A model generated the notes under the pieces. That model was not told where the DNA came from. It saw only the letters and a program-made list of their open reading frames with translations, and made no database searches. Positions 46,627-54,882 of a stretch of 64,000 bases of DNA are shown in pieces. The position numbers and the translations under genes are program-made. Origin of the DNA: Dechloromonas denitrificans (lineage in GTDB: Bacteria > Pseudomonadota > Gammaproteobacteria > Burkholderiales > Rhodocyclaceae); assembly GCF_020510665.1 (NCBI RefSeq), contig NZ_CP075187.1, positions 2,270,001 through 2,334,000 of the forward strand, given 5' to 3'. Position 1 is the first letter of the stretch; the number at the start of each line of letters is the position of its first letter.

Positions 46627-47928
46627 ATGCCCAAACAATTCCCTTTCCACGTCGCTGGCGGCAGCCTTCCCGCCGCCCCGGCATTTCCCGGCTTGCCCAA
46701 GCCATTTGACTTCAGTTTGCCCGAAGCCAGCGAACAGCTCGCAAGAGGTTCGCGACGCCGACGCCTGTGGGAAATTTCGCACAAATTCCACTGCCCGATC
46801 ATTGGTGTCTGCTTTGCCGTTGATGAACTGCGCAGCCTGATGAAAAAAGTGATGCACTTTCCGGGTGACACCAGCGATTTCGTTTTGCACACAAGTGCCG
46901 TCGGTGCCTGCGAGCATCGGACTCCGCTCGCTGAACTGCTCTACAAAACACTGGAACGCCGCTATCAGACGGACATCCGTCGCTTTGCCGCCGCCAGGGA
47001 TACGCCGAGCCTTCGACAACTCTGGCAGGAAAGTCGGCGGATCGGAACGGCCATTCCTGCCGCTCTCTGGGCGACATGGTCGCATCCGTCCTGTGACAAA
47101 GCACTTGAGCAGGAAATTTATGGCGACATCCACATGCTTCAGCACCAGATCGGGACCGGCACCAGGACCGACTTGAAAGCGTTCGCCAAACTGCAGCAAG
47201 AAAATCTGGAGCTCGAACGCCAGGTCATGCTCGCCCGTCAGGAAATTGCCCAGATCCGCGAAGAACGCTTGCGCGAAGCACAACGCCAGGAACAGTGCAT
47301 CAGCGAATTACGCATCGAACTTGCCGGCAAGGACGCCTGCCTGGCGCGTCAGGCAGGCGAGCTGGACACCCTGCGCAGCAGCATTCCCGAACTCAAGAAC
47401 AGGCAGGCGCTGGCCCGTCGAGCCAGTGATGCAGAAGCGCGCGCACTGGCCATTTCCGCCCATGCCGCCCGGCTCGAAATGGAAAACAACGCACTGCGCC
47501 GAAATGGCCAGAATGGGTTGCCCGACATCGAGATGGATGAAAAACCCGCCGTACCGGCCTGCGATCTCACCCAACTGGCCAGCCACGAACGGCTGGATGG
47601 CAAAAATGTGCTGTGCGTCGGCGGGCGGGCAGGATCGATCGAGGCCTACCGCGGCATCATTGAGCAGCATGGTGGACGCTTTCTGCACCACGATGGCGGC
47701 CTTGAAGAAAGCCTGCACCGGATCGATGGCGCACTGGCCGCGGCCGATCTGGTCATCTGCCAAGCCGGCTGCATCAGCCACAACGCTTACTGGCGGGTCA
47801 AGGAACAGTGCAAGCGGACTGGCAAGCCATGCATCTTCATGAAAAATACTGGAGCATCAAGCCTGGCCAGATCGCTTGCTGAAAACATCAATCGACTGAG
47901 CACACCCGATACGGCCGAGCTCGAATAA
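46627..47928 (+). CDS. DUF2325 protein with coiled coil
   Basis: 433 residues, cytoplasmic. N-terminal helical domain (about 45-180, with KFHCPIIGVCFAVDELRSLM), long coiled coil (about 185-300, rich in E/Q/R/L), and C-terminal DUF2325 (about 328-425: VLCVGGRAGSIEAYRGIIEQ, ADLVICQAGCISHNAYWRVK). The DUF2325 domain is Rossmann-like and of unknown function. A cytoplasmic role in iron handling is suggested only by its place between bacterioferritin genes and bfd. The ribosome site is weak. Confidence 0.85.
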   Translation: MPKQFPFHVAGGSLPAAPAFPGLPKPFDFSLPEASEQLARGSRRRRLWEISHKFHCPIIGVCFAVDELRSLMKKVMHFPGDTSDFVLHTSAVGACEHRTPLAELLYKTLERRYQTDIRRFAAARDTPSLRQLWQESRRIGTAIPAALWATWSHPSCDKALEQEIYGDIHMLQHQIGTGTRTDLKAFAKLQQENLELERQVMLARQEIAQIREERLREAQRQEQCISELRIELAGKDACLARQAGELDTLRSSIPELKNRQALARRASDAEARALAISAHAARLEMENNALRRNGQNGLPDIEMDEKPAVPACDLTQLASHERLDGKNVLCVGGRAGSIEAYRGIIEQHGGRFLHHDGGLEESLHRIDGALAAADLVICQAGCISHNAYWRVKEQCKRTGKPCIFMKNTGASSLARSLAENINRLSTPDTAELE

Positions 47929-47960: not shown

Positions 47961-48005
47961 TTGACATTCATTCGCATTTATATACAATGCGAATGGTTCT
48001 CATTG
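47961..48005 (+). promoter_or_regulatory. bfd promoter with overlapping Fur half-sites
   Basis: TTGACA (47961-47966), 16 bp, TACAAT (47983-47988). CAATGCGAATGGTTCTCATTG (47985-48005) is a 21-bp Fur-type dyad over the -10. Its left arm also pairs with ATTCGCATT at 47970-47978, giving three half-sites in a row, as expected for two Fur dimers side by side. Confidence 0.8.
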
Positions 48006-48031: not shown

Positions 48032-48235
48032 ATGTACGTCTGTGTTTGCCACGCAGTGACCGATCGCCAGATTCGTGAAGCCGCGCAAGGCGGGGCCAGA
48101 ACCCTGAAAGACCTGCGGCGCGACCTTGGTGTGACCCGCGACTGCGGTCGCTGCGCCTCATGCGCCCACGACTGCCTGCAGGAAGCAAACGGCAACCAGA
48201 AAAAACCCGGCAAGGCGATGCGCAAAACAGCCTGA
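48032..48235 (+). CDS. bfd: Bacterioferritin-associated ferredoxin
   Basis: 67 residues. Cys pattern CVCHAVTDRQIREAA ... CGRCASC matches Bfd/BFD-like [2Fe-2S] domains. Bfd docks on bacterioferritin at heme and sends in electrons so that stored iron is released as Fe2+. Its C-terminal tail is basic (NGNQKKPGKAMRKTA). Strong Fur site upstream implies induction in iron shortage. Converges with the DUF1513 gene; the 127-bp gap shows no clear terminator. Confidence 0.95.
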   Translation: MYVCVCHAVTDRQIREAAQGGARTLKDLRRDLGVTRDCGRCASCAHDCLQEANGNQKKPGKAMRKTA

Positions 48236-48362: not shown

Positions 48363-49493
48363 TCATGCTTCGTTGAGCAAGACCCAGTGATTATCCAGCG
48401 CCATTGGCTTCGGCCATGGCAACAGCGCTGCCTTGGCAGTCGGATGCCAGCGAACCAGACCCAGCCCCGTCGCAACCAGCACGCCCCCACCCTTGCCCGG
48501 ACCATTCCAGCCGGCCAGGGCATAGGCCTCTTCAAGCTCGACGATGTGCGTCAGCTTGTCGGGCGTCGCCGGATGCCACAACTGAGCCAACCCTGCCTGA
48601 TTGCTCGACAAGGCAAAGCCGCCGTTATAGGCCGCCGTTATATCGCCCGCATAGCCAAAACCATCATTGGCACGCGTCGGCACGCTCAGTTCATCACCCT
48701 CAAGAACGGCCAGAATCGGGGCAGAAGAACGTTTGCCGGCATCGTCGTGCTCAGCCTGGATGGCAATCCCGAGATAGGCGTCGGCATCAAGCGGCGCATG
48801 GCTCCAGGCCAGGTGACGCAAACTGAGCCTCGGATCATCAAGACGCCACTGGCGCAACAACTGGCCGTTGCGCTGATCGATGCGGACCAATGACGGGTCC
48901 ATCCGGTGCAGGTCGTATTTTTTATCTGCCGAGGTCCGCGGCACACCGCCGTTGGCAACGATCAGATTGCCTTGATGATCGAGCAGCAGTTGATGTGGAT
49001 CGATACCACGGGTTTCCCACTCGGCGACTTTCTTCAGCGTCTTGAGCTCACGAACGCCAATTTTCCCTTGCCCGGTCGTCAGATTTGTTTCCGTCGTGTA
49101 GAGCAAGTTGCCGTTGGCCGAGACAACGGCGTGGCCGTTCAGACGAACGGAGGCGCTTTCTTCAGCCATGTCGATTTGCTGGACAATCTTGCCATCTGCG
49201 TCGCAGCGCAATATCCAGCCACCCGGCCGAGCGCCGACCACGAGCAGGCCGCCGTCAGGTTCGGGCAGCAAGCCATGCGGACGGGTTGGCAAAGGCACGG
49301 CGTAGGCGATATCAATTTTCTTGCGATCCCAGTCAGCCCGCAGCGCACCGGCAAAATACGGGTCGTTCTTGTTCGGCCCGCGCCAGGCTGCACCTAGCGT
49401 TGCTTGCTGGATGGCCGACGCAGCCAGCGACAATTTAGGCAAAGCAGCCATGCCCAGCAGGGCCAGCAGCATGTGACGACGATTCATTTTCAT
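48363..49493 (-). CDS. DUF1513 periplasmic beta-propeller-like protein
   Basis: About 376 residues from ATG 49493 (a second ATG at 49487). Signal sequence starts NRRHMLLALLGMAALPKLSL with twin Arg (RR), so Tat export is possible. Repeated blades such as PHGLLPEPDGGLLVVGAR, NGHAVVSANGNLLYTTE and IDPHQLLLDHQGNLIVANGG suggest a seven-bladed propeller; this matches DUF1513. The family is found with iron-uptake lipoproteins in pseudomonads but has no assigned activity. It is the last gene of the minus-strand iron operon. Confidence 0.85.
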   Translation of the reverse strand: MKMNRRHMLLALLGMAALPKLSLAASAIQQATLGAAWRGPNKNDPYFAGALRADWDRKKIDIAYAVPLPTRPHGLLPEPDGGLLVVGARPGGWILRCDADGKIVQQIDMAEESASVRLNGHAVVSANGNLLYTTETNLTTGQGKIGVRELKTLKKVAEWETRGIDPHQLLLDHQGNLIVANGGVPRTSADKKYDLHRMDPSLVRIDQRNGQLLRQWRLDDPRLSLRHLAWSHAPLDADAYLGIAIQAEHDDAGKRSSAPILAVLEGDELSVPTRANDGFGYAGDITAAYNGGFALSSNQAGLAQLWHPATPDKLTHIVELEEAYALAGWNGPGKGGGVLVATGLGLVRWHPTAKAALLPWPKPMALDNHWVLLNEA

Positions 49494-49520
49494 TCCACGA
49501 TAAACAGGTTCAACAGCAAC

Positions 49521-49538
49521 AGCCGGCACTTGCCGGCT
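49521..49538. repeat. Hairpin between the iron-binding protein and DUF1513 genes
   Basis: AGCCGGCA CT TGCCGGCT, an 8-bp stem with 2-nt loop, no U-run. It may protect the upstream mRNA or lower expression of the DUF1513 gene. Confidence 0.45.
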
Positions 49539-49549
49539 GCTCCTTGTAA

Positions 49550-50566
49550 TTAACGGTAGGCGGCTCGGTCAAGCAGCTTTTGCGCCGTTGCAACATGCTT
49601 TGCAAGGGCACTGATCGGCAGGGTGTCGGCCTTGAACTTGCCCATCGCATCAAGCGCCGGATTATTGGTCTGGACGCTGGCCACGACCGGCCACTCATTG
49701 TTGCCATCGGCGAAATAACGCTGGGCATCGTCGCTGGCCAGGTACTCCAGGAACTTGACGGCGGCTTCCTGATTCTTCGCCGTCTTGACCATGCCGCCAC
49801 CGGAAATATTGATGTGCGCGCCATGCCCGGCCTGATTCGGCCAGACGATGCCGACCCGTTCCATCATCCGGCGCTCGTCCACCTTGTCGGAACGAATCAG
49901 ACGGGCCAGGTAATAGGTATTGGAAACGGCCACGCCGCACTCACCGGCCGCCACCGACTTGATCTGATCAGTATCGCCACCCTTCGGCGCACGGGCAAAG
50001 TTAGCGACAACGCCCTTGGCCCACTCCTCGGTCTTGGCTTCGCCATCGTGGGCGATCAAGGAAGAAACCAGGGACAGGTTATAGGGGTGCGAACCGGAGC
50101 GGCTGCACAGTTTGCCCTTCAGTTTCGGATCGGCCAGCGACTCGTACGTGGCGACATCCTCTGCCTTGAGTACATTGCGGTTATAGATGATGACGCGCGC
50201 CCGGGTCGAAAAGGCAAACCAGGTATCGCTGCGCAAATGGGCTGGAATCCGCGATTCGAGCAGCTTCGACTTGACTGGTGCGAACAGCCCCAACTCATCG
50301 CTTTTGGCCAATCTGGCGGCGTCGACCGTGATAAACACATCCGCCGGGCTGTTGGCACCTTCGTTGCGGATACGCTCCATCAATTCCTCTTCCTTGCCTT
50401 CGATCCGGTTGATCTTGATGCCGGTCTGCTTGGTGAAGTTGTCGTAGAGCTTTTCGTCGGTCTGATAGTGGCGGGCTGAATAGAGGTTCAAAACCTTTTC
50501 CTGAGCCTGGGCGGCAAAGCCGGTCGTTGCCAGCAACAGGGCAATCAAGGTCATTTTCTTGTTCAT
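49550..50566 (-). CDS. Periplasmic Fe(III)-binding protein, FbpA/FutA family
   Basis: 338 residues, ATG 50566 with AGGAGA. Signal peptide 1-21 (LLLATTGFAAQAQ). EKVLNLYSARHYQTDEKLYD starts the fold; the Tyr/His in it and SNTYYLARL contain the pairs of Tyr that bind iron in FutA/FbpA. It captures Fe3+ in the periplasm. No FbpB/FbpC permease or ATPase lies in the window, so it is an orphan or uses a remote transporter. Its ATG overlaps the stop of the upstream flavoenzyme gene. Confidence 0.9.
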   Translation of the reverse strand: MNKKMTLIALLLATTGFAAQAQEKVLNLYSARHYQTDEKLYDNFTKQTGIKINRIEGKEEELMERIRNEGANSPADVFITVDAARLAKSDELGLFAPVKSKLLESRIPAHLRSDTWFAFSTRARVIIYNRNVLKAEDVATYESLADPKLKGKLCSRSGSHPYNLSLVSSLIAHDGEAKTEEWAKGVVANFARAPKGGDTDQIKSVAAGECGVAVSNTYYLARLIRSDKVDERRMMERVGIVWPNQAGHGAHINISGGGMVKTAKNQEAAVKFLEYLASDDAQRYFADGNNEWPVVASVQTNNPALDAMGKFKADTLPISALAKHVATAQKLLDRAAYR

Positions 50567-51738
50567 GGGTCGGTTCTCCTGAAAGAAGGTGCTTTTAAAT
50601 AATCGGTAGAAATCTGGCTGAGGCTGGCCACGCCGCACAAGGCCATGCAGGCTTCGAGCTCATCCTGCAACAGGCGCAGGACGTGGGCGACACCCAGCGG
50701 GCCGGCAGCCGCCAGCGCGTGGATATAGGGACGGCCAATCATGACGGCCGATGCCCCGAGGGCAATGGCCTTGAAAATATCGGTACCGCGCCGGATGCCG
50801 CCATCGAGCAGGATGGGGACGCGACCGAGCAGACGCTCGGCAATGGCCGGCAAGGCATCGAGGCTGGCCGGCAAGGTATCGAGCGTGCGGCCGCCATGGT
50901 TCGAGACAACGATGCCGGCAGCCCCGAGATCGACCGCGCGGACGGCATCGTCCGGATGCAGGATGCCCTTGACGATGACCGGCAAGCGGGTCGTCGCCAG
51001 CAGCCATTCAAGATCACGCCAGGTCGGCGCATGCGGCATCAAGTCATCGAACACAGTACTGGGGCCGCGCTGCGCCCGCTTTTCAGCATCTGAACGCCGA
51101 CGCCGGGCCATGCCTTCAACATCGTCGGCCTGCTGCGGTCGACGCAGGTTTACGGCCTCAATGCCAGGCGGCAGTTGGAAACCAACACGCTGTTCGCGAT
51201 TGCGTATGCCGTGCAAGGGCGCATCGACCGTAAAAACAATGGCTTCGTAGCCGGCGGCTTCGGCCCGCTGCACCAACTCGGCATTCAGGCTGCGTTCTGG
51301 TTGCAGGTAAAGCTGGAACCAGCGCGGCCCATCGCCGCCCCGCCGGGCTGCGGCAGCCACATCCTCGATCTGGCAGCTGGCCAGCGTGCTGAGCACCATG
51401 CCGGCACCCAGCGCCGAGGCGGCATAGGCGGTTGCCAACTCGCCATCCGGATGAAACAGTTTTTGCCAGGCAACCGGCGCCAGCAGCACCGGACTCGGCA
51501 GTTCGCGGCCAAGCAGCGTCGTCCGGCAATGCCCGCCAGCGACATCGGCCATCACCCGCGGCAGCAAGGCACGGCGATCGAAGGCGGCGCGGTTCCAGGC
51601 CTGCGTCAGCTCATCGGCTGCCGCACCATCGAGGTAAGCCCAGGCATTATCGTCAAGCCGGCGACGGGCGTAGGCTTCATAGTCGGCCAGCGCAACGATG
51701 TCGCGCGGAATGCCGTCGAGCAACGGCGCCTGGAACAT
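50563..51738 (-). CDS. FMN-dependent alpha-hydroxy acid dehydrogenase
   Basis: 391 residues, lactate dehydrogenase/glycolate oxidase family, TIM barrel. Seen: AWAYLDGAAADELT, PVLLAPVAWQKLFHPDGELA, WFQLYLQPERSL, FTVDAPLHGIRNREQRVGF, the catalytic His in IVVSNHGGRTLDTLPASLDA and the FMN-phosphate part DGGIRRGTDIFKAIALGA. It oxidises a 2-hydroxy acid. It is locked between piuC and the iron-binding protein by 4-bp overlaps, so its substrate may be a hydroxycarboxylate iron ligand. Confidence 0.9.
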   Translation of the reverse strand: MFQAPLLDGIPRDIVALADYEAYARRRLDDNAWAYLDGAAADELTQAWNRAAFDRRALLPRVMADVAGGHCRTTLLGRELPSPVLLAPVAWQKLFHPDGELATAYAASALGAGMVLSTLASCQIEDVAAAARRGGDGPRWFQLYLQPERSLNAELVQRAEAAGYEAIVFTVDAPLHGIRNREQRVGFQLPPGIEAVNLRRPQQADDVEGMARRRRSDAEKRAQRGPSTVFDDLMPHAPTWRDLEWLLATTRLPVIVKGILHPDDAVRAVDLGAAGIVVSNHGGRTLDTLPASLDALPAIAERLLGRVPILLDGGIRRGTDIFKAIALGASAVMIGRPYIHALAAAGPLGVAHVLRLLQDELEACMALCGVASLSQISTDYLKAPSFRRTDP

Positions 51739-52421
51739 CAGCTGTCAGCCCAGCGACGCAGCAGATTGTGGTAGCAGCCGGTCAGACGGACGACGGGCTC
51801 GCTGTCGCCTTGCGTCTCGCGCAGGCTGAGCAGCGCCATGTCCATATCGAACAGCATGCGGCGCTGACCGGGGTCGCGCACCATGCTCTGCATGAACATG
51901 AAGCAGGCGACGCGCTCGCCCGCGGTAACGGGTGCCACTTCGTGGATCGAGGTCGAGGGATAGACGACCATGCTGCCCGCCTTGAGCTTCAGGCCGTGCT
52001 TGCCGAAGGTGTCTTCAATGGTCAGCAGGCCGCCTTCGTATTCGTCGGGTTCGGAAAGAAACAGTGTGGCCGAAACATCGGCCCGGACATAGCCGCTGCC
52101 GTCCGGCATCTGGCGCATGGCGTTGTCGGTATGGAAGCCGTAGTAGTTGCTGTCACCGCTGTAGCGATTGAAGAATGGCGGCAGTATTTTCAGCGGCAGC
52201 GCCGCCGTGAAAAAAGTCGCATTGCGGTTCAGTGCGCCCAGCACCAGACGGCGCAAGGCCGGCAGATGCGTTGCGTTTTCGGCCAGTTGCTCATTGTTCT
52301 TGGCTTTGGCCGCCTGCAAGCCAGCGGTTATTTGCCCATCCGCCCAAGTCGATTGTGCCAGCAGCGATTTCGCGGTCGACAGCTCTTCCGGGGTCAAAAC
52401 GTCATCGATAGTGATCAGCAT
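51738..52421 (-). CDS. piuC: PKHD-type Fe(II)/2-oxoglutarate hydroxylase PiuC
   Basis: 227 residues from ATG 52421 (GAGGAAG upstream). Double-stranded beta helix with the iron triad H and D in YYGFHTDNAMRQ and the distal H in STSIHEVAPVTAGERV, where Arg binds 2-oxoglutarate. PiuC/YbiX genes neighbour catecholate receptors and are iron-regulated, but the substrate is unproven. Overlaps the flavoenzyme start by one base. Confidence 0.93.
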   Translation of the reverse strand: MLITIDDVLTPEELSTAKSLLAQSTWADGQITAGLQAAKAKNNEQLAENATHLPALRRLVLGALNRNATFFTAALPLKILPPFFNRYSGDSNYYGFHTDNAMRQMPDGSGYVRADVSATLFLSEPDEYEGGLLTIEDTFGKHGLKLKAGSMVVYPSTSIHEVAPVTAGERVACFMFMQSMVRDPGQRRMLFDMDMALLSLRETQGDSEPVVRLTGCYHNLLRRWADS

Positions 52422-52438
52422 CGCTTCCTCAAGCAAAG

Positions 52439-52466
52439 ACGCCTCCGACTTTACGGTCGGAGGCGT
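52439..52466 (-). terminator. Strong hairpin between receptor and piuC, possible partial terminator
   Basis: ACGCCTCCGAC, 6-nt loop, GTCGGAGGCGT, then CTTTGCTTG on the minus strand. An 11-bp stem with weak U-run, 16 bp after the receptor stop. It may reduce read-through to the enzyme genes. Confidence 0.6.
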
Positions 52467-52481
52467 TGGGTCAGACGAGTC

Positions 52482-54665
52482 TTAGAACTTGTATTCCGTG
52501 CTCAGGATGAAGCGGCGCGGCTGGCCAACATAAGTGAAGCCACCGTTGTCGTAGATCGCGTCGTAATACAGCGTGTCGAAGACATTCTGGATGTTGAGCT
52601 TGATCGTGTACTTCGGCTGTTCATAAGCCACCATGGCATCCCAGCGCGTATAGGACGGCACGAAGTTCGGGTTGAACGGCGTCGTTGCGCTGTTGCCGGT
52701 CGGGGCACCGCCGTAGCGTTTGCTCTTGTACTCCATGCCGCCACCCACCTTGAAGCCCATCGGCAACTGATAGGTGGACCACAAATTGAACGTTTGCTTC
52801 GGCGTATTACGGGCATTGTGGCCGATGAAGTTCGCATTGCCAGTCGTCGGTGCAACCTCAAGAATTTCAGCATCGATCAACGACAAACCGCTGAAAACCT
52901 CCCACTTATCGGTAATCCGGCCAGCCAGTTCCAGCTCCAGACCATCCGACTGACGTTTCTTGGTCAGGATCGAAGAAGTGGATTCCAGATCGGTGTTGCG
53001 CTCCCAGTTTTTGGTCGCCGTGTAGAGAGCCGTGCGGAAAGCCAGGTTGCCGTCAAGCAACAACCACTTGGCGCCAATTTCCGTCACCTTGGAACGTTCG
53101 GCTGGATACTGGTTACCCGACAGTTGGTAGAGATCGGCCGTCGGGCTGAACGAATCGCTCCAGCCGAGGTAGTAGTGCTGCGCCGCCGAAGGCTGCCACG
53201 AGAGGCCGGTACGGTAGCTGTTTTCGCCGAAATCACCGCTGAAGTTGCTGACCACGCCGGTATTGCTGACCGATTGATAACCGGAACGCATTTCATCGCG
53301 GCGGATACCTGCGGTCAACTTCCAGTCACGGACAAATTCGAGCGTATCCTGGACATAAGCACTGTAGGTATCGCCGTTATAGGTATTCGGCGAGGCAGAG
53401 GTGTAATGACCGGACTTGTACACCGGATTGGCTGCCGTCCCGAGATTACGCAAAGCCCAGCGCTTTGAATCTTCCTTCAGATACTCCACGCCGGTAACGA
53501 GTTCGTTACGCATGCCGAAGATATTGAATGCAGTATTGAAATCGCTCTGGATGACAAAGTTGTCGGTATCGAATTCACGCGTTTTTGCACTGCCGCCGTT
53601 AACCGATGGAGCACCATTCTGCGGCGCGCCAGCCCAGTAGGAGCGCTTGTAATTTGCGGCACGCATGACGGTGCGCCATTGCGTATCGGGCGAAATCTTG
53701 AACAGGTAGTTCAGGGTCGTGACATTGGTCTGGCTTTCATCGAACTGACCGCTGACACCCCAGTAAGCCCCCGACTTGCCGTAGTTGGATTCGGGCTTCT
53801 TGGCCTGACCGTTGAAGGGCACGCCATAATCCGGACGATCATTGGTCTGCAACCAGAAATGGCTCAAGGTCAGTTCATGCTGCGTACCCAGGCCAAAGGC
53901 GATGCTCGGGGCAATGCCCTGCCGATGGATTTCCGGCGTCGTCCCGGTCACCGGGTTGGAGCGCGAACTACCTTCGTCACGATTCATCAGATTGAGGCGC
54001 AACGCGGTTGTTTCGCCGATCCGCTGATTCAGGTCGGCCTTGGTTTCGAAGAAACCATCGGTACCGAAACCGGCGCTGACCTTGTTAATACCGTAAAGCA
54101 TCGGGGTCTTGCTGACCTGGTTGATCACACCGCCGGCCTGACCGCGGCCAAACAGCATGGCGGCCGCACCGCGCAGCACATCGACCTGCTCCAGGTTGAA
54201 TACCTCACGGTCGTACTGCGCCGTGTCGCGAATACCGTCGAGGTGCATGTCGCCGAAGGTATAAAAACCGCGCAACATCATGTTGTCGCCCGAACGACCG
54301 CCTTCCGCAGCATTGAACGAAAGACCGGAGACATTACGCAACGCTTCGCGCAACGAATTGGCTTCCTGCTCCTCCATCAGCGAACGGGTAATCGTCGTGA
54401 TTGCTTGCGGCACATCGTGCGGGTCCTGAACCACCTTGCCGACACGGGTCTTGCTGGCCCGATAGCCATCCTGCTGCTCGGCATTGGCTTTGACGGTCAC
54501 CGGGGCAAGTGTCGCTTCCTGGGCGACAGCCACCCCTGTGACCCCCATCAGACCGACGAACATGGCGGCCCCCAGCGGCAAAACCGGGCTGGAGCGATCA
54601 GTCGAACAGGGAGTTGAAGACAAAGGCCCGGCTTTTTCCCGGGCGAGCAACTTGGTTTTTTTCAC
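52482..54665 (-). CDS. TonB-dependent catecholate siderophore receptor (Fiu/PiuA type)
   Basis: 727 residues from GTG 54665 with AAAGGA upstream. Long N-region and signal ending GVTGVAVAQ, TonB box APVTVKA, plug with VPQAITTITRSLMEEQEANS, LREALRNVSGLSF, MMLRGFYTFGDMHLDGIRD and LRGAAAMLFGRGQAGGVINQ, and a barrel ending ILSTEYKF. It imports ferric catechol or similar siderophores with TonB. A Fur dyad lies 197 bp upstream. First gene of the iron operon. Confidence 0.93.
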   Translation of the reverse strand: MKKTKLLAREKAGPLSSTPCSTDRSSPVLPLGAAMFVGLMGVTGVAVAQEATLAPVTVKANAEQQDGYRASKTRVGKVVQDPHDVPQAITTITRSLMEEQEANSLREALRNVSGLSFNAAEGGRSGDNMMLRGFYTFGDMHLDGIRDTAQYDREVFNLEQVDVLRGAAAMLFGRGQAGGVINQVSKTPMLYGINKVSAGFGTDGFFETKADLNQRIGETTALRLNLMNRDEGSSRSNPVTGTTPEIHRQGIAPSIAFGLGTQHELTLSHFWLQTNDRPDYGVPFNGQAKKPESNYGKSGAYWGVSGQFDESQTNVTTLNYLFKISPDTQWRTVMRAANYKRSYWAGAPQNGAPSVNGGSAKTREFDTDNFVIQSDFNTAFNIFGMRNELVTGVEYLKEDSKRWALRNLGTAANPVYKSGHYTSASPNTYNGDTYSAYVQDTLEFVRDWKLTAGIRRDEMRSGYQSVSNTGVVSNFSGDFGENSYRTGLSWQPSAAQHYYLGWSDSFSPTADLYQLSGNQYPAERSKVTEIGAKWLLLDGNLAFRTALYTATKNWERNTDLESTSSILTKKRQSDGLELELAGRITDKWEVFSGLSLIDAEILEVAPTTGNANFIGHNARNTPKQTFNLWSTYQLPMGFKVGGGMEYKSKRYGGAPTGNSATTPFNPNFVPSYTRWDAMVAYEQPKYTIKLNIQNVFDTLYYDAIYDNGGFTYVGQPRRFILSTEYKF

Positions 54666-54861
54666 GGACAGTCCTTTAGCGAGTCATTGAGGCGGCTGGC
54701 TGGCGAAAGGCTGGCTTGCCGAATTCTGCGTTTGAGAATCGGTCGACCGCAGCAGGGCAGTCAGTGGACTACCCTGCTGGAAAAATACCGGACAGGCTCA
54801 AACAGTTTCTTTGAGAACCTGGCTGGCTGTGCAGAATTGGCTGGCTAGTTCATAAATAGAA

Positions 54862-54882
54862 ACGAGAATGTATCTCATTTGT
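54862..54882 (-). promoter_or_regulatory. Fur box of the siderophore receptor operon
   Basis: GAGA-ATGTA-TCTC within a 21-bp dyad (minus strand AAATGAGATACATTCTCGTTT matches the Fur consensus arms). The leader to the receptor GTG is about 200 nt and contains no gene. Confidence 0.8.

Follow-up and report, generated by a model that had tools for sequence, protein, structure and literature searches.

A predicted FMN-dependent hydroxyacid oxidoreductase recurs beside the receptor-PiuC iron-uptake pair in Dechloromonas denitrificans and many other bacteria

The present study reveals that an FMN-dependent enzyme, predicted to oxidize alpha-hydroxy acids, is, judging by gene neighborhoods, a recurrent third component of the receptor-PiuC iron system (Fiu-YbiX, PiuA-PiuC, CciT-CciO). 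Its gene lies in an operon within a 64,000-nucleotide stretch of the Dechloromonas denitrificans genome (the window). What can be read directly from the sequences is the layout of the operon, its Fur box, an intact set of catalytic residues, and the repeated FMN-PiuC-receptor linkage. Our preferred explanation, to which we give a probability of roughly 45%, is a Fur-controlled receptor-PiuC uptake operon with a dedicated flavoenzyme that would oxidize the imported ligand or its breakdown product. The available parts of two 2025 papers (PMC12004947, PMC12004943) leave the PiuC/YbiX/CciO substrate open; those of the former link mutations in receptor homologues to cefiderocol resistance, and another paper (PMC11878004) has PiuC mutations in its title. 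The features concerned are as follows.

52482..54665, minus strand: TonB-dependent receptor, Fiu/PiuA type (Pfam Plug and barrel; TIGR01783; structure matches)
51738..52421, minus strand: piuC/ybiX/cciO-type 2OG/Fe(II) oxygenase (ATG start; the open reading frame extends to 52436)
50563..51738, minus strand: FMN-dependent alpha-hydroxyacid oxidoreductase, PiuC-linked subfamily (FMN_dh, 437.7 bits)
49550..50566, minus strand: FutA/FbpA-type periplasmic ferric-binding protein (ATG start; SBP_bac_6/8; PDB matches)
48363..49493, minus strand: DUF1513 protein, Tat-like start (by reading), predicted beta-propeller (ATG start; PF07433, 194 bits)
48032..48235, plus strand: bfd, bacterioferritin-associated [2Fe-2S] ferredoxin, convergent neighbor (PF04324 above cut-off)
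54861..54879, minus strand: Fur-type box 5′ of the receptor gene (3 mismatches to the 19-mer)
47986..48004, plus strand: Fur-type box 5′ of bfd (2 mismatches to the 19-mer)
52439..52466, minus strand: attenuator-like or mRNA-end hairpin between receptor and PiuC (stem of 11 bp, weak T tail)

The gene coordinates bear out the preliminary description, which listed five genes on one strand with a hairpin in a 60-nt gap between receptor and PiuC. The 4-bp and 1-bp overlaps that it placed between the middle three genes are one base shared by the PiuC and FMN genes and four bases (ATGA) shared by the FMN and iron-binding protein genes; 56 nt separate the latter from DUF1513. The gap hairpin folds with a z-score of −2.3, and 6 of 200 shuffles folded equally well. 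For the Fur-type box we searched with the 19-mer AATGAGAATNATTCTCATT. Allowing up to 3 mismatches, it matched twice in the 64-kb window against 0.01 matches expected, and one of these matches is the Fur dyad already described upstream of the receptor. A box with up to 4 mismatches precedes the receptor gene in 56 of 83 loci tested, as compared with 0.12% of mononucleotide shuffles. Going by this candidate box, the operon would be under Fur control; from the Fur boxes and operon structure only, we infer that the flavoenzyme would respond to iron.

The first two genes have the makings of a known receptor-PiuC system. By sequence and structure matches the receptor is of the Fiu/PiuA type: it exceeds the TIGR01783 cut-off in a profile search, and its closest solved structures are 5fok, 5nec, 5fp1, and Fiu itself (6bpm). 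Its best-scoring model is Fiu, yet the score of 305.7 is well short of the equivalog cut-off of 686. The PiuC protein (2OG-FeII_Oxy_3 and PKHD_C domains) adjoins the receptor, exceeds the NF003975 cut-off for a PKHD-type oxygenase, and has the fold of PiuC structure 9ghl. Its H97, D99, H160, and R170, presumably the HxD...H motif and the 2OG-binding arginine, are invariant in 41 sequences.

The third protein is, by its FMN_dh domain and catalytic residues, an alpha-hydroxyacid oxidoreductase in a subfamily of its own. Y35, Y144, R179, K257, H281, and R284 are those of glycolate oxidase. In 99 aligned sequences (the window, 80 fetched loci, and 18 further loci, including L096 and L097 with the genes of genomes G128 and G172), Y144, K257, H281, and R284 are present in all 99, Y35 in 96, and R179 in 89 (5 gaps, 5 other residues). 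The mean identity to Escherichia coli LldD is 37%, and the protein falls below the NCBIfam cut-offs for LldD (280.1 vs 376 for NF008398 and 256.9 vs 550 for NF033901), lactate oxidase, and MftD. Furthermore, a glycine of E. coli LldD is replaced by alanine in 97 of the 99, as in glycolate oxidase, and the pocket contains Ala90 and an aromatic residue at 91. Alanine at this site is more usual in oxidases than in quinone-linked dehydrogenases. The plain name "LldD lactate dehydrogenase" was dropped on account of the scores and the pocket. Lactate itself stays among the conceivable substrates, and the A90/L119 pocket of the window's enzyme presumably also resembles that of lactate-specific flavocytochrome b2, a likeness that fits plain lactate oxidation and speaks against ligand processing.

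The FMN protein, used alone as bait, recovered the receptor-PiuC pair. In 73 of the 80 fetched loci PiuC lies within 5 kb of the FMN gene, and in 61 it is the adjacent gene on the same strand within 300 bp; contig ends cut 4 of the 7 loci without it. The receptor is nearby in 70 or 71 of the 80, depending on the score threshold. A 200-genome order sample separated the subfamily from its distant relatives: PiuC was found within 1 kb for 15 of 19 matches with at least 47% identity and within 10 kb for none of 65 matches with at most 42% identity (E ≤ 1e-60). The 47% border is valid for the order sample alone: of two class-sample genes that are both 44% identical, that of G172 adjoins PiuC and that of G112 does not (by eye).

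The larger order sample of 399 genomes, which apparently contains the 200 (shared handles suggest this), gave a similar picture. PiuC occurs in 39 of 40 subfamily genomes, compared with 139 of 399 overall, and all 24 genera with the subfamily include a PiuC genome, compared with 83 of 164 genera overall. Our Fisher and hypergeometric values take no account of genome kinship; counting by genus is fairer. The two genes lie within 5 kb of each other in 31 of the 40; 7 of the remaining 9 belong to one family (f175), and one of these 7 is G557, the subfamily genome without PiuC at cut-off. Read from the other side, 31 of 139 PiuC genomes in the order sample and 4 of 64 in the class-wide sample carry a linked FMN gene. 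With no linked FMN gene in most PiuC genomes, the enzyme is dispensable for the general system. This low share and the 9 unlinked subfamily genomes weigh against our preferred explanation. Among 29 pairs within 1 kb, PiuC comes first in 22 and FMN in 7; thus, the partners are kept while their arrangement changes. Distances among FMN, PiuC, and receptor proteins are also correlated (Mantel r of 0.72, 0.82, and 0.89; 0 of 999 permutations; uncorrected for species kinship) over 74 of 94 loci, the rest being without a neighbor or of odd length.

It is this linkage that makes the FMN subfamily a recurrent third component of a known system. The preliminary description was therefore right to place the flavoenzyme with the receptor and PiuC, and its proposed neighborhood search upheld the trio. 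The objection that the order might be unique to this genome falls away for the trio, because the trio recurs widely. The complete five-gene order did not hold up in the same way, as it was found in 2 of 80 fetched loci, both from Dechloromonas (L001, L002).

How might the three proteins work together? In the available text on Caulobacter, receptor function strictly requires the PiuC homologue CciO, and substrate oxidation is one of three models proposed for it (PMC12004947). Iron-loaded plant catechols are imported by PiuA/PirA, according to parts of another report (PMC9426570). In the D. denitrificans operon, the receptor would import iron(III) bound to a small ligand, either a catechol or a hydroxycarboxylate. 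Ferric iron set free in the periplasm would be captured there by the FutA-type protein and passed to an FbpBC-like importer encoded elsewhere. The ligand would enter the cytoplasm, where PiuC and then the FMN enzyme could oxidize it or its breakdown product, the latter by converting an alpha-hydroxy acid to an alpha-keto acid. Such oxidation would weaken the chelator so that iron is released, and would maintain the gradient into the cell. Within the operon no inner-membrane importer of the ligand was found, which counts against this explanation. Our best guess is that the FMN enzyme acts in the cytoplasm, oxidizing an alpha-hydroxycarboxylate that belongs either to the imported chelator or to the PiuC product. 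Its presence beside the oxygenase in many bacteria suggests a missing third step in the handling of captured chelators. The broader proposal, that in many Proteobacteria PiuC hydroxylates an imported ferric ligand and a dedicated FMN oxidase then destroys its iron-binding alpha-hydroxycarboxylate, we consider unlikely.

The linkage matters for the search for the PiuC substrate. A second enzyme that tracks PiuC across many genera, and that comes from a family of well-understood chemistry, narrows this search to ligands that should bear an alpha-hydroxycarboxylate from the outset or gain one. If the two-enzyme release step is true, the flavoenzyme substrate would reveal the action of PiuC. The linkage also allows ligand processing to be told apart cleanly from iron-sparing metabolism.

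The latter is the main rival, having a published precedent, and we regard it as rather unlikely. Under low iron, the Fe-S enzymes LutABC/GlcDEF would be turned off and the iron-free FMN enzyme made, its gene sitting in a Fur operon for regulation and not for a pathway shared with PiuC. In iron-starved Actinobacillus pleuropneumoniae, the available part of one study gives a log2 change of +3.38 for LldD protein (transcript +0.76, not significant) and of −4.78 to −6.55 for the LldEFG proteins (PMC12507848). An earlier array, as far as its accessible text goes, had lldD up five-fold, a response common to Pasteurella multocida (PMC1832192). D. denitrificans could use such an iron-sparing lactate dehydrogenase, an option absent from the preliminary description: its genome carries LutABC-like and GlcDEF-like genes (Fe-S lactate/glycolate; named from reading plus CCG matches), and the FMN enzyme is its sole full-length LldD-type match. 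However, iron sparing does not predict PiuC in 39 of 40 subfamily genomes, nor its lying within 5 kb in 31. In the 200-genome order sample, 8 of the 19 genomes with the subfamily have other LldD-family copies as well (E ≤ 1e-60). Furthermore, homologues of LldP, LutA, LutB, LutC, GlcD, and GlcF were absent near the FMN gene in 98 loci of other genomes (six query proteins, E ≤ 1e-10, flanks of at most ~8 kb), and the subthreshold LldD scores and the Gly-to-Ala exchange likewise weigh against this explanation.

It is improbable that the FMN enzyme instead serves as an electron donor, oxidizing an abundant hydroxy acid and passing electrons through a carrier (Bfd-type, or cytochrome b561/PepSY) to reduce ferric complexes. 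Of the 80 loci, 19 have a Bfd-like gene directly 3′ of the FMN gene and 29 have one within 5 kb, and the window's bfd is a convergent neighbor with its own Fur box. A cytochrome b561 homologue (Pfam on one representative) occurs within 5 kb in 6 loci; in L025 its neighbor is a PepSY_2 protein, and L022 has a similar open reading frame. Yet 51 of the 80 loci have no Bfd-like gene within 5 kb and 74 no b561, and the alanine in place of the LldD glycine is of the glycolate oxidase type. Finally, biosynthesis, in which PiuC and the FMN enzyme would make or tailor the cell's own, perhaps cell-bound, ligand for the receptor to import, is among the models offered for CciO in the accessible text (PMC12004947) and is very improbable here, as no chelator-building gene was recognized among recurrent neighbors (Pfam on 10 representatives, 4 of them without a match).

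The two remaining genes stand apart from the trio. The iron-binding protein lies within 5 kb of the FMN gene in 12 of 80 loci and DUF1513 in 3; on these counts we gave up the idea that all five genes form a single system. The former belongs by sequence to the ferric-binding SBP family, and the solved structures that it matches best are of proteins that bind or transport iron (2pt1, E = 1.2e-106; 6g7n; 2voz). The DUF1513 model (pLDDT 90) matches beta-propellers by structure comparison, and the protein would be an accessory periplasmic propeller outside the core. It is over the cut-off in 7 of 114 genomes traced, one of them D. denitrificans, and no paper on DUF1513 was found in the open-licence full-text literature.

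Compared with CciT-CciO, Fiu-YbiX, and PiuA-PiuC, the window has the same succession of a Fiu-like receptor and a PKHD-type 2OG/Fe(II) oxygenase, here behind a candidate Fur box, but differs in that PiuC shares its last base with a flavoenzyme gene. In E. coli, fiu-ybiX has the same receptor-oxygenase order without a flavoenzyme neighbor. FMN is not mentioned in the available main text, as distinct from the neighborhood figures, of the Caulobacter papers (PMC12004947, PMC12004943). Two mentions of "flavin" there concern another operon and a reference. In the open-licence full-text literature, as far as its accessible parts go, no description of a PiuC-linked flavoenzyme was found.

The FutA/FbpA-type protein, unlike its known counterparts, has no permease or ATPase in its operon. 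A permease resembling FbpB and an ATPase resembling FbpC (the ATPase named from reading) lie beside a second FutA, 70% identical and ~85 kb away, so that the iron-binding protein earlier called "lone" is alone in the operon but not in the genome. DUF1513 is shared with the imelysin-di-haem oxidoreductase-imelysin-DUF1513 module. Among the neighbors scanned (L123 to L126), imelysin-di-haem oxidoreductase-imelysin precedes DUF1513 in L124 and L125, with the oxidoreductase 5′ of it in L123 and imelysin in L126; in G064, FbpA (Pfam) and FbpB- and FbpC-like open reading frames (by reading) directly follow the module. In contrast, DUF1513 of the window stands only behind FutA; imelysin and the di-haem oxidoreductase, and hence the module, are absent from its operon, and imelysin from the whole genome at threshold.

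With glycolate oxidase, lactate oxidase, LldD, and hydroxymandelate oxidase, the flavoenzyme shares the FMN_dh domain and all catalytic residues. Unlike these, its subfamily is linked to PiuC, was not found beside lactate genes in the 98 loci scanned, and has Ala90 with an aromatic residue at 91. The nearest analogy to the enzyme pair is that of hydroxymandelate synthase (HmaS) and the FMN hydroxymandelate oxidase (Hmo), natural-product enzymes that would also lend support to biosynthesis. HmaS is not known as a PiuC-family 2OG enzyme, and its role is in antibiotic synthesis rather than iron uptake. In that pair the Fe(II) oxygenase yields an alpha-hydroxy acid, which the FMN partner then oxidizes.

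The present analysis reveals that the core of this operon is a Fiu/PiuA-type TonB-dependent receptor, a PiuC/YbiX/CciO-type 2OG/Fe(II) oxygenase (PiuC) and an FMN-dependent alpha-hydroxyacid oxidoreductase (FMN enzyme). The preliminary description had rightly observed a five-gene operon, and its gene names agree with the Pfam and NCBIfam families. In the window, the features are as follows:

48363-54665, minus strand: receptor, PiuC, FMN enzyme, ferric-binding protein and DUF1513 protein, in order of transcription
50563-51738, minus strand: FMN gene
46627-47928, plus strand: DUF2325 protein, upstream of bfd

PiuC and FMN genes overlap by 1 base, and FMN and ferric-binding protein genes by 4; the 60-nt receptor-PiuC spacing includes a hairpin with an 11-bp stem and a weak T tail. 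Two Fur-type boxes (at most 3 mismatches to the 19-mer consensus; 0.01 expected in 64 kb) lie 5′ of the receptor and 5′ of the convergent bfd. The closest named relatives of the FMN gene among the loci matched come from Dechloromonas denitrificans (94%) and D. hortensis (93%).

With the FMN protein as sole bait, loci were fetched from a collection with one genome per species. Among the best 80 of 385 confirmed stretches, PiuC lay within 5 kb of the FMN gene in 73, adjoining it on the same strand (within 300 bp) in 61, and a receptor lay within 5 kb in 71. Contig ends cut four of the seven loci without PiuC (L016, L018, L026 and L031); L014, L038 and L057 are true exceptions. Within 5 kb in these 80 loci, we also found TonB, ExbB and ExbD together (45), a Bfd-like ferredoxin (29, in 19 of them immediately 3′ of the FMN gene), an HbpS-like gene (28), a ferric-binding protein (12), a cytochrome b561 homologue (6) and DUF1513 (3). 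Comparative genomics thus largely supports the earlier hunch that the two enzymes are paired, but the five-gene unit is confined to Dechloromonas among the fetched loci. Of 83 loci tested, 56 had a Fur-type box with up to 4 mismatches 5′ of the receptor, versus 0.12% of shuffles, and pairwise protein distances over 74 loci were correlated (Mantel r 0.72 for FMN-PiuC, 0.82 for FMN-receptor and 0.89 for PiuC-receptor). The hosts are mainly beta-proteobacteria, with Thiothrix, one Bosea isolate, and possibly contaminated metagenome bins labelled Thalassolituus, Hyphomicrobium, Aliarcobacter and Verrucomicrobiaceae.

The b561 homologue lies between PiuC and the FMN gene in L022 and L025, and also in L026 (whose contig stops short of PiuC), L043 and L060; a small PepSY_2 protein precedes it in L025 and a similar ORF in L022. 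These genes could encode a ferric reductase inside the same operon. The HbpS-like gene (haem-degrading protein family; e.g., L035:11453-11998) is on the opposite strand and, in the majority of the 28 loci, 3′ of the TonB-ExbB-ExbD genes.

In a class-wide sample of 184 genomes, 64 carried PiuC and 31 carried FMN_dh relatives (E <= 1e-40); by eye, the two stood side by side in G000 (the window's genome), G091, G128 and G172, with reversed order in the last two. FMN matches in 200 genomes of the order (E <= 1e-60) split cleanly into 19 at 47-100% identity, 15 of them on PiuC's strand and no more than 1 kb from it, and 65 at 42% or less, none of which lay within 10 kb of PiuC. All 19 genomes with the closer matches carried PiuC, versus 65 of 200 overall. 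Likewise, among 399 genomes of the order, the subfamily (E <= 1e-80) was present in 40, of which 39 had PiuC (139/399 overall); by genus, a PiuC genome was found in 24/24 with the subfamily versus 83/164. Of the pairs, 29 were at most 1 kb apart (PiuC first in 22, FMN in 7) and 31 at most 5 kb apart. The nine unlinked subfamily genomes include seven from one family, f175, among them G557, where PiuC was not found at the cut-off; G384 and G488, of the window's own genus, had neither gene at these cut-offs. Searches of open-licence full-text literature found no description of this PiuC-linked subfamily.

The operon's ferric-binding protein is a FutA/FbpA relative, and G000, a single 3.46-Mb contig, carries a 70% identical copy at about 2.234-2.238 Mb:

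G000:C1:2233537-2238163 (L094:5538-10164): second FutA, two-domain FbpB-like permease (opposite strand) and FbpC-like ATPase

Since the second FutA adjoins this permease and ATPase, an importer common to both binding proteins is plausible. An insertion element is also present at two places in G000, its 490-aa ORFs (L094:3870-5342 and L137:9320-10792) being almost the same and, by reading, transposase-like. The DUF1513 protein has, by reading, a Tat-like start; its fold is predicted to be a beta-propeller. Four of six DUF1513 genomes outside G000 were looked at: in two, DUF1513 closes an imelysin - di-haem oxidoreductase - imelysin - DUF1513 block, and in the other two it follows a di-haem oxidoreductase or imelysin. 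In G064 (L125:2647-11312), the same block continues without interruption into FbpA, FbpB-like and FbpC-like ORFs; such a compact iron module of the periplasm could account for DUF1513. No imelysin was found in G000. Considering this genomic company, we treat DUF1513 as an accessory travelling with periplasmic iron handling.

Catalytic residues, like the gene order, Fur boxes and co-occurrence, are observed directly. The receptor would import the ferric complex of a small ligand, and the FMN enzyme would contribute to the same ligand chemistry as PiuC, most simply by converting an alpha-hydroxycarboxylate to a keto acid. We give ligand oxidation by the FMN enzyme a probability of roughly 45%. 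The serious rival, though less likely, is iron sparing, with the iron-free FMN enzyme replacing Fe-S lactate/glycolate oxidation. Excerpts of two reports describe such a shift in iron-starved A. pleuropneumoniae, where LldD protein rises and Fe-S LldEFG falls (PMC12507848; PMC1832192), and the genes of G000 include LutABC- and GlcDEF-like ones but no other full-length LldD match. However, iron sparing leaves unexplained the tie of the FMN gene to PiuC, the further LldD-family copies that 8 of 19 subfamily genomes carry, and the absence of lactate genes near the FMN gene in the 98 loci scanned. Electron supply by the FMN enzyme is improbable, and a role in biosynthesis even more so. By reading, an unusual lactate cluster (L136:6003-10495) has LutA- and LutB-like ORFs apart from a LutC-like ORF, with aldehyde-dehydrogenase-like and D-2-hydroxyacid-dehydrogenase-like ORFs between.

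A candidate link between PiuC and the FMN enzyme is the malate, an alpha-hydroxy acid, with which Pseudomonas PiuC was solved (PDB 9ghl); there it is probably a 2OG mimic. According to excerpts of published work, Pseudomonas PiuA and PirA import iron-loaded plant catechols (PMC9426570), and in Caulobacter a receptor needs its PiuC homologue to feed iron, with ligand oxidation among three models for that homologue (PMC12004947).
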